NCBI RefSeq assembly: GCF_000383955.1
Contig: NZ_KB913013.1
Location: forward strand, 3,677,694-3,741,693
Length of the DNA stretch: 64,000 nucleotides
Direction: 5' to 3'
Source: Rudanella lutea DSM 19387
Lineage (GTDB): Bacteria > Bacteroidota > Bacteroidia > Cytophagales > Spirosomataceae
Below the pieces are notes generated by a model, which saw only the letters and a list, made by a program, of their open reading frames with translations, had not been told where the DNA came from and did no database searches. The position numbers and the translations under genes were made by a program. Of the stretch, positions 12,322 to 14,406 are shown in pieces (position 1 is the first letter of the stretch; each line of letters starts with the position of its first letter).

Positions 12322-12726
12322 TTAGTCGACACAGGCCGCGGCCAACTCGTTGAATAGCCGACCCGCTTCCGGGTAGTTGCCCGACCAGTAGGCCTGTTCA
12401 CCCAAGGTGTATCGGAGATTGTCCATCTCCTCGACCAACAGGTGCCGGAACCACGACAATTCGATCACCCGACCATCGTACGTAGGGGTCTGGTTTTTAA
12501 GCCAGTTGCCCACGCGCTCACAGGCCGACCCCGCCGGAATTTCTCCGTGCGCTAACAAACTCTCCTGGCCTTGTTCAATAGCTTTCGCCACTTGCCGAAG
12601 CCCCGCCCCGATGAAGGCGCGCAAACTGCTTTCGGTCACGACATCCGTGTAGGTCGTCATAATCCGTTCTGTTGAAAAAGAGGTTGGTGTCATTGCCGTA
12701 ATGAGTTGAAATTCGTGCGATTTCAT
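12322..12726 (-). CDS. Orphan malate synthase C-terminal-domain protein, catalytic residue lost
   Basis: 134 residues. From VTESSLRAFIGAGLRQVAKA to RLFNELA it follows, without large gaps, the C-terminal plug domain of malate synthase A (family pattern VTEAGLR.NI..G..Y, then ISR..IWQWL, then F..LL.EE, LGE..., G.F.EA..LF). The TIM-barrel core that binds acetyl-CoA and glyoxylate is absent. Where the enzyme has MEDAATAE with the catalytic aspartate, this protein has GEIPAGSA, so the aspartate is replaced by isoleucine. It therefore cannot be a working synthase. The neighbour is a divergent regulator of the type that controls aceA/aceB. It may be a remnant of a lost aceB or a small protein reused as a partner. 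The start could be ATG 12726 or 12660. Confidence 0.6.
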   Translation of the reverse strand: MKSHEFQLITAMTPTSFSTERIMTTYTDVVTESSLRAFIGAGLRQVAKAIEQGQESLLAHGEIPAGSACERVGNWLKNQTPTYDGRVIELSWFRHLLVEEMDNLRYTLGEQAYWSGNYPEAGRLFNELAAACVD

Positions 12727-12867
12727 TGTGCCAGCAAGTTTACAAAGCGAATTTTGAATAGAAAAGCGAATATTCGCAAACGGCCAAAAATTCTCCCGAT
12801 TCCGTACTGAAAATGGGCAAACCGCGTGGATTATAGTAAGTTTGGCGTTGGGTCTTCTCTAAGCAGT

Positions 12868-14406
12868 ATGGATTTTAGTTCGGATAGCATTCGTATTCTC
12901 TTTGGTTTAAAGCTCCGGCAACTCCGGCTCGACAAAGGCTTGACTCAGTACGACCTGGCCGATTTGTCGGGGGTGTCGGTGTCGTACATCAACGAGATCG
13001 AAAAAGGGAAGAAGTACCCCAAAACCGATAAGATTATTGCCCTGGCGGGGGCTATGGGCGTCACGTACGACGCGCTCGTGTCGGTGCAGTTGAGCAAACG
13101 GATGGAGCCGATTTATAACCTGCTGCGTTCCAACATCCTGCGTGACCTCCCGCTGAGTATGTTTGGCATCGAACCCGCCGACTTGCTCGAGTTGCTGGCC
13201 AACGCGCCCACCAAACTGAGCGCGTTTATCAGCACAATCATGGAAATCGGGCGGCAGTACAACCTGAGTGTCGAAGAGTTTTACTTCGCCGTGGTCCGGA
13301 CGTACATCGAGATGCACGAAAACTACTTTGCCGACATCGAGCAGGCGGCCGATGCATTTCTGGCGCAGGTAAGCCCCGACCCGGCTTTCGTGCTCAACGA
13401 GTCGTTTTTGAGTCAGTACCTGCACGAGTGCCACGGCTATACCGTTGAGCTGTTCAACGAGGGGAGCCACCCGCACCTGAGCAGTTTGCGGTCGGTGCTG
13501 TTGCCGGCCGAAAAGAAACTGTTGCTCAATCAGGTTCTCACGTCCGATCAGCGCGCGTTTACGCTTGGTCGGGAGGTGGGTTTTCTGCGGCTCGAAAGCA
13601 AGGAGCGCCCGCTCACGTCGTCGTGGGTCGAGGTACAGTCGTTCGATCAGGTGCTGACCAACTTCCGGGCTTCGTACTTTGCGGGGGCCATTCTGATGCG
13701 TCGGGACCGGGTGCTGCCCCTGCTCGAAAACTGGCTTAGCCTGCCCACCTGGGCCGAAGCCGCCGTGGCGCTGGAGCAGATGCTCGATCAGCTCCAGGCT
13801 ACGCCCGAAACCCTGTTGCACCGGATCAGCAATTTTTTGCCCCACTACTTCGGTATCGATCAGTTATTTTTTCTCCGTTTTGAGCACGAGCCGCGCGACG
13901 TTTCGCCGGGCGACGTTTCGCCGGGCGACGTTTCGCCGGGTGAAGAGACTTTCAACCTGACCAAAGAAATGCACCTCTCGCGGCTGCATAACCCGCACGG
14001 GATTACGGGTGAGCACTACTGCCGCCGGTGGATTTCGCTCAAGATGCTCACCGAACTGGCCGATGCCCAACAGCAGGGGCCTGTAGACAAGCCGTTGCTG
14101 CGGGCACAGATTTCCACCTACATCGATTCGCACAATAGCTATTTTGTGTTTGGGCTGGCGCGCCCGCTCACACCCATCCGGGGGCTCAACCACAGCGTTT
14201 CGCTCGGGATTCTGCTCAACGAAACCAGCCTGAAACGGGTGAACTTCCTCAACGACCCGGCCATCAACCGGCGGATGGTCAACGAATCGTGTGAGCGGTG
14301 CCGGGCGCTGGATTGCCAGGAGCGATCGGCCCCTCCGATTCTGTTTCACAAACGGCAGCGCGTCGAGATGCTCAAGAGTGCCTTGCAGGATCTGGGCGTT
14401 CGGTAG
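12868..14406 (+). CDS. XRE-family regulator of the RamB/ScfR (short-chain fatty acyl) type
   Basis: 512 residues from ATG 12868 (an in-frame GTG at 12826 would add 14 residues with no family support). An XRE helix-turn-helix fills about residues 8-65 (LRLDKGLTQYDLADLSGVS, then INEIEKGKKYP). The long C-terminal part resembles the DUF2083-type ligand domain and ends in a cysteine cluster, CERCRALDCQERSAPP, typical of RamB and ScfR. Those regulators control acetate, propionate and glyoxylate-cycle genes, often from an adjacent position. Here the divergent neighbour is only a malate-synthase fragment. A triplicated 15-base repeat near residue 344 inserts extra DVSPG units. Confidence 0.82.
   Translation: MDFSSDSIRILFGLKLRQLRLDKGLTQYDLADLSGVSVSYINEIEKGKKYPKTDKIIALAGAMGVTYDALVSVQLSKRMEPIYNLLRSNILRDLPLSMFGIEPADLLELLANAPTKLSAFISTIMEIGRQYNLSVEEFYFAVVRTYIEMHENYFADIEQAADAFLAQVSPDPAFVLNESFLSQYLHECHGYTVELFNEGSHPHLSSLRSVLLPAEKKLLLNQVLTSDQRAFTLGREVGFLRLESKERPLTSSWVEVQSFDQVLTNFRASYFAGAILMRRDRVLPLLENWLSLPTWAEAAVALEQMLDQLQATPETLLHRISNFLPHYFGIDQLFFLRFEHEPRDVSPGDVSPGDVSPGEETFNLTKEMHLSRLHNPHGITGEHYCRRWISLKMLTELADAQQQGPVDKPLLRAQISTYIDSHNSYFVFGLARPLTPIRGLNHSVSLGILLNETSLKRVNFLNDPAINRRMVNESCERCRALDCQERSAPPILFHKRQRVEMLKSALQDLGVR
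13897..13941 (+). repeat. Three tandem copies of a 15-base unit inside the regulator gene
   Basis: The unit GACGTTTCGCCGGGC is repeated three times in frame and encodes DVSPG three times. The copies are identical except for the last base, which suggests recent slippage. Confidence 0.95.

Follow-up and report, generated by a model that had tools for sequence, protein, structure and literature searches.

The closest described relative of the small gene reported here is malate synthase A (AceB; TIGR01344, PF01274, PF20659). Its product resembles the helical C-terminal domain of that enzyme, about residues 418-519, and the promoter layout of aceB in related genera is also found at the small gene. 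Unlike malate synthase A, however, the fragment lacks the N-terminal part, the TIM barrel, the MEDAATAE loop and the extreme C-terminus, and cannot catalyse. Work on malate synthase H of Haloferax volcanii describes the C-terminal domain as a cap that differs strongly between isoforms; acetyl-CoA is covered by a hairpin together with the last part of the helix before it, and the catalytic base is at the hairpin's end (PMC3112382). Malate synthase H keeps the barrel and the catalytic aspartate and has a truncated helical cap, whereas the fragment represents the reverse situation. Among the matches listed in a search of the open-access literature, and within the text available there, we found no stand-alone malate synthase C-terminal domain. 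The second system for comparison is the PrpR/RamB/ScfR (IsaR) regulators (PMC6765138 and PMC10370305), whose HTH and C-X2-C-X4-C motif also occur in the neighbour of the fragment, along with a sub-threshold match to their IrrE-like region. The neighbour differs in that the gene divergent to it is an aceB fragment without catalytic capacity and in that it scores far under the NCBIfam RamB cut-off. The same sources indicate that the C-X2-C-X4-C motif of PrpR holds a [4Fe4S] cluster near a CoA pocket (PMC6765138), and that Paracoccus RamB, of the ScfR family, is a CoA thioester-binding activator of the glyoxylate operon that acts from the region between ramB and ms (PMC10370305).

We analysed a stretch of 64,000 nucleotides from Rudanella lutea DSM 19387 (contig NZ_KB913013.1), referred to here as the window. 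The locus consists of the following features:

12322..12693, minus strand: stand-alone malate synthase A C-terminal domain, 123 amino acids, from the first ATG common to all five copies
12735..12742, minus strand: -7 box TAAACTTG, TAnnCTTG in five of five copies (consensus TAnnTTTG, PMC9723704)
12747..12751, minus strand: putative operator half-site TTCGC, 14 nt past the palindrome
12766..12777, no strand assigned: putative operator palindrome GCGAATATTCGC, identical in five of five copies of the locus
12868..14406, plus strand: XRE-type regulator, 512 amino acids, PrpR/RamB-like, with HTH_3, a sub-threshold IrrE-like region and C-X2-C-X4-C

The mechanical ORF of the fragment spans 12322-12726 on the minus strand (134 amino acids). 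Its first ATG, at 12726, is common only to the window copy and the closest relative, and the start codons common to all five copies are at 12693 (123 amino acids) and 12660 (112 amino acids). Consistent with the sequence-only reading, in which the product was said to follow the C-terminal domain of malate synthase A, the short frame matches positions 383-493 of 511 in the TIGR01344 profile (E 2.2e-4, 19.6 bits; curated cut-off 594.5) as well as PDB entries 3cux (E 7e-4) and 3cuz (E 9e-4). The profile search that reading proposed was thus significant, if modest, with TIGR01344, but the Pfam MS_C match fell short of its threshold (E 0.029; 15.2 of the 23.1 bits required) and a whole-genome MS_C search did not recover the short frame. 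By BLASTP, the window copy shows 33% identity over 103 residues to AceB of a related genus (G235; aceB 418-519), and the copy from the Rudanella genome G002 matches full AceB of related genera at E 7e-20; the tiny subject set makes these E-values optimistic. In these alignments the similarity is significant, modest and confined to about AceB 418-522, roughly the last fifth of the enzyme. When two full AceB and one AceA were compared by tblastn with the window and six neighbourhoods, only the C-terminal domain and a chance-level match (G002, E 0.55) were returned, and no barrel piece was found near the short frame. The MEDAATAE catalytic loop is replaced in the fragment with no aspartate aligned there, and judging from the aligned copies this stretch is hypervariable. 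The entire loop is gone; the replacement of the catalytic aspartate by isoleucine, as described earlier, depends on the alignment.

An AlphaFold2 model of the fragment, built from five sequences, was of poor quality (pLDDT 64.7), with predicted helices at 21-40, 57-68, 79-104 and 107-122. Malate synthase 3cux ranked first in Foldseek, at a non-significant level (E 0.86, probability 0.66). By alignment, the stretch that the fragment has not kept corresponds to the capping hairpin region. As the hairpin that closes over acetyl-CoA (PMC3112382) is the very part lost, a role as acetyl-CoA sensor becomes less likely. Sensing through the old cap is unlikely on this alignment, which weakens the earlier proposal of a ligand sensor.

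Profile searches of the window's own genome detected neither a malate synthase barrel (PF01274) nor an isocitrate lyase (PF00463); in 14 control genomes, the same searches gave matches in 6 and 8, respectively. The TIM barrel, reported as absent from the sequence alone, is thus lacking from the genome as well as from the vicinity of the frame. The sequence-only reading had also expected that an aceB elsewhere would support a reused domain. This was not what we found, as only one of four Rudanella genomes (G002) has a barrel, one of the other three (G003) being only 71% complete, and isocitrate lyase was found in none of the four. The G002 protein (L016 898-2778, minus strand) has 626 amino acids, is divergent (TIGR01344 247.6 bits against the cut-off of 594.5) and does not match the fragment significantly. 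G005, G018 and G028 gave comparably strong barrel matches in frames of 641-663 amino acids, and the four proteins perhaps constitute a malate synthase group that has diverged.

All four Rudanella genomes examined contain the fragment, at 100, 97 (G001), 59 and 55% identity, the last copy being interrupted by a contig end. A fifth copy (65% identity), in Rudanella gene order, lies on contig 6 of a record labelled Flavobacterium sp. SUN052 (NZ_JAPQNS010000006.1; L063), which is probably misnamed or contaminated. The same divergent regulator adjoins the fragment in all five copies. Profile searches gave matches in 22 of 222 family, 75 of 390 order and 25 of 395 phylum genomes, sets that overlap and of which the order and phylum sets are samples. 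No short form was found outside the genus in these genomes; every listed match there falls in an open frame of 525-722 amino acids, the size of full aceB. The pairing of frame and regulator is indeed conserved, but within one genus lineage and not across several genera as had been envisaged.

To describe selection on the fragment, dN/dS was calculated pairwise over the five copies (10 pairs) by the Nei-Gojobori method with our own script. Finite dS was obtained in 8 of 10 pairs, the other two being saturated, and synonymous differences were at or near saturation in all pairs except the closest. The close pair gave a ratio of 0.05 and the seven others gave ratios of 0.11-0.24; regulator ratios were 2-4 times below those of the fragment. 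The frame is intact in all five copies. When single lineages were simulated under a simple neutral model (4000 runs), the share of runs in which a 123-codon frame stayed free of stops was 4.4% with 0.27 changes per site, 0.4% with 1.2 and 0.3% with 1.8. Conservation is uneven along the protein. Mean pairwise identity among four lineages, for regions whose boundaries were picked after viewing the alignment, is 84% in the first helix, 73% in the later helices and 76% in the short tail, with 46% in the N-terminal extension and 24% in the catalytic loop region. The earlier argument that an intact frame speaks against simple decay is strengthened by these data, and we reject simple decay on the grounds of the dN/dS ratios, the intact frame, the helix conservation and the promoter described below.

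Most of the intergenic region has diverged, and conservation there is highest in the palindrome and half-site. In all five fragment promoters, GCGAATATTCGC is followed by the half-site at 14 nt and by TAnnCTTG at 23 nt, and each of the four Rudanella genomes has a single exact GCGAATATTCGC. We examined 14 aceB loci of relatives, in stretches of 9-20 kb, and found GCGAAWWTTCGC upstream of aceB in all 14 (in G037, inside an over-long mechanical frame ahead of the likely aceB start). Among the 10 of these promoters that were measured, the TAnnTTTG box begins 22-23 nt past the palindrome in all 10, the TTCGC half-site lies 12-14 nt past it in eight, and TTG directly follows it in nine. The fragment promoter, as read from these motifs, has the aceB layout of palindrome, half-site and -7 box. 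With TTT in place of TTG in five of five copies, and with TAnnCTTG for TAnnTTTG, it may be weaker than that of aceB.

A degenerate form of the palindrome core occurs 2-3 times per Rudanella genome, and a control pattern, read backwards, gave two sites per strand in G000 and G001 (versus three real sites) and none in G002 and G003. The core by itself not being rare, we place weight on position, spacing and conservation rather than on rarity. G000, G001 and G002 each have three GCGAAWWTTCGC sites, two of them with the centre AA or AT. These two adjoin ilvD-like and leu-like genes (read by eye) and are found repeatedly within the genus. A TTGCGTAATT-like sequence lies alongside them, and they show no aceB-type spacing. 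We think that they belong to another system, and they could also be targets of this regulator. The second GCGAAWWTTCGC site in G003 lies within a coding frame. Upstream of ilvD-like and leuA-like genes (by eye), GCGAAATTTCGC with a nearby TTGCGTAATT-like sequence was found conserved, and it may be the operator for a regulator of branched-chain amino-acid genes:

G000 C1:3795574 and C1:3818066, G002 C1:55844 and C2:24500: GCGAAATTTCGC sites (L112, L116, L110, L114)

The pckA-fbp locus has a variant operator, GCGAACGTTCGC, found once per genome in all four Rudanella genomes (L093, L095, L103). The loci of genus g4 (L129-L133) have AGCGATWWATCGCT-like sites. Across these two sets of loci, operator forms change with regulator lineage.

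The conserved start of the regulator is ATG 12868 (512 amino acids) rather than GTG 12826. It contains an HTH_3 domain (56.2 bits) and the sequence CERCRALDC, which fits the C-X2-C-X4-C motif as defined in PMC6765138. Its IrrE-like region scores 19.3 bits with Peptidase_M78 against a cut-off of 22, and two regulator homologs (L093 and L055) are above this cut-off. The HTH_3 domain and the cysteine motif agree with the RamB/ScfR-type assignment made from sequence alone; the protein is far under the RamB equivalog NF038139 (50.6 bits against a curated score of 700). By identity, the closest homolog (73%) is in G084 and has no fragment alongside; there the regulator-DUF1800-DUF1501 order is conserved, two other genes replace the fragment and the palindrome is absent. 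The two genes, one of them ParA-like (by eye), lie between a subtilisin-like gene and the regulator (L128 8300-9851). Homologs with 61-66% identity in five genomes of genus g4 are all divergent to pckA, again with no fragment alongside. The 73% and 61-66% homologs indicate that the regulator does not need the fragment in general. Genus g40 has homologs at 55-57%; of the three examined, two resemble a different Rudanella paralog more closely.

A regulator of this kind is divergent to aceB-aceA in 7 of the 14 relatives' loci (G004, G007, G030, G032, G035, G076, G235); pckA and fbp then follow in G004, G007 and G032, and pckA in G235. None was found in the aceB-aceA stretch of the other seven (G179, G180, G183, G136, G138, G027, G037). 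G020 and G010 lack a barrel match, and their regulator is divergent to pckA-fbp. In two trees (support 87/89 and 96/95), the Rudanella pckA-fbp regulator forms a group with the aceB-side regulators of G004, G007 and G235. The fragment-side regulators fall with other paralogs in the first tree (85/93) and have no firm placement in the second. A single clade of the G004, G007 and G235 aceB-side regulators with all four pckA-fbp regulators was not rejected (AU p 0.36), whereas the same clade without the Rudanella and G010 pckA-fbp regulators was rejected (AU p 0.0005). Also on the aceB side, the regulators of G030, G032 and G035 have long branches, those of G030 and G035 were left out of the second tree, and that of G076 is absent from the trees. 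Neither tree supports the fragment-side regulator as an ortholog of the aceB-side regulator. As the aceB-side regulators of G004, G007 and G235 group apart from the fragment-side one, a simple decay of aceB beside its own regulator is not proven.

Homology, enzyme absence, a conserved frame, helices, promoter layout and constant pairing can all be read from the sequences, and the fragment is very probably a gene that was kept without catalytic activity under an aceB-type promoter of its own; its role is probably new and not enzymatic. Both alternatives offered earlier, a remnant of a deleted aceB or a small protein that was kept, would then be right in part. An ancestral aceB(-aceA) transcription unit would have lost the N-terminal part, the barrel and aceA, in whatever order. 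About 105 C-terminal AceB residues, together with the promoter and operator of aceB, would have stayed as a separate small gene, divergent to the PrpR/RamB-like regulator. If expressed, the product would most likely work by binding another protein, since the catalytic loop is gone and the helices are kept by selection. The regulator is the most likely candidate, being the constant divergent neighbour and facing one operator together with the fragment, and we infer from this arrangement, tentatively and at a little under even confidence, that it is the partner. Our best reading, held with similar reserve, is that an exapted aceB fragment under the regulator's control may act as its feedback co-factor, where the regulator would bind the operator and the fragment, by contact, would change its DNA or acyl-CoA response.

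The same conservation and promoter evidence would fit an exapted fragment that the regulator merely switches on and that has another target, for example a different protein such as another acetyl-CoA or gluconeogenic enzyme, or that serves as a small structural protein. We regard this as a realistic though somewhat doubtful possibility. Close regulator homologs do without the fragment, and the five g4 loci divergent to pckA point the same way; the target is, however, unspecified, and the regulator is the only constant neighbour able to be a partner by position. A decaying aceB remnant that has yet to acquire stops could explain the hypervariable catalytic loop region, the departure of the promoter from the aceB consensus and the 2-4 times faster evolution of the fragment than of the regulator by dN/dS. 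This is nevertheless improbable given a frame intact in five copies despite near-saturated synonymous differences, dN/dS of 0.05-0.24, the 0.4% of stop-free frames expected neutrally at 1.2 changes per site, helices 73-84% identical and an operator identical in five of five. That palindrome and half-site are the best conserved intergenic part would also be expected if the operator were kept for autoregulation of the regulator, with the downstream frame incidental or a leader peptide. This we consider highly improbable, because helix amino acids are conserved despite high synonymous divergence, the -7 box at aceB spacing is directed towards the frame, and the G084 locus retains the regulator but has neither palindrome nor frame.

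Loss of the glyoxylate cycle is commonly viewed as nothing more than the loss of its genes. In Rudanella, by contrast, selection has kept one domain of the missing enzyme along with the promoter. If true, this would clearly and testably exemplify the reuse of part of an enzyme once its pathway has gone. It would also provide Bacteroidota with a small pair of regulator and target in which the operator, GCGAAWWTTCGC spaced at a constant distance from the -7 box, is readable from sequence. That a dead enzyme fragment, kept under the former enzyme's promoter, serves an acyl-CoA-sensing transcription factor as dedicated protein co-factor is in this full form unlikely; if the co-factor reading is true, however, a metabolic operon would have been turned into a two-gene regulatory loop.
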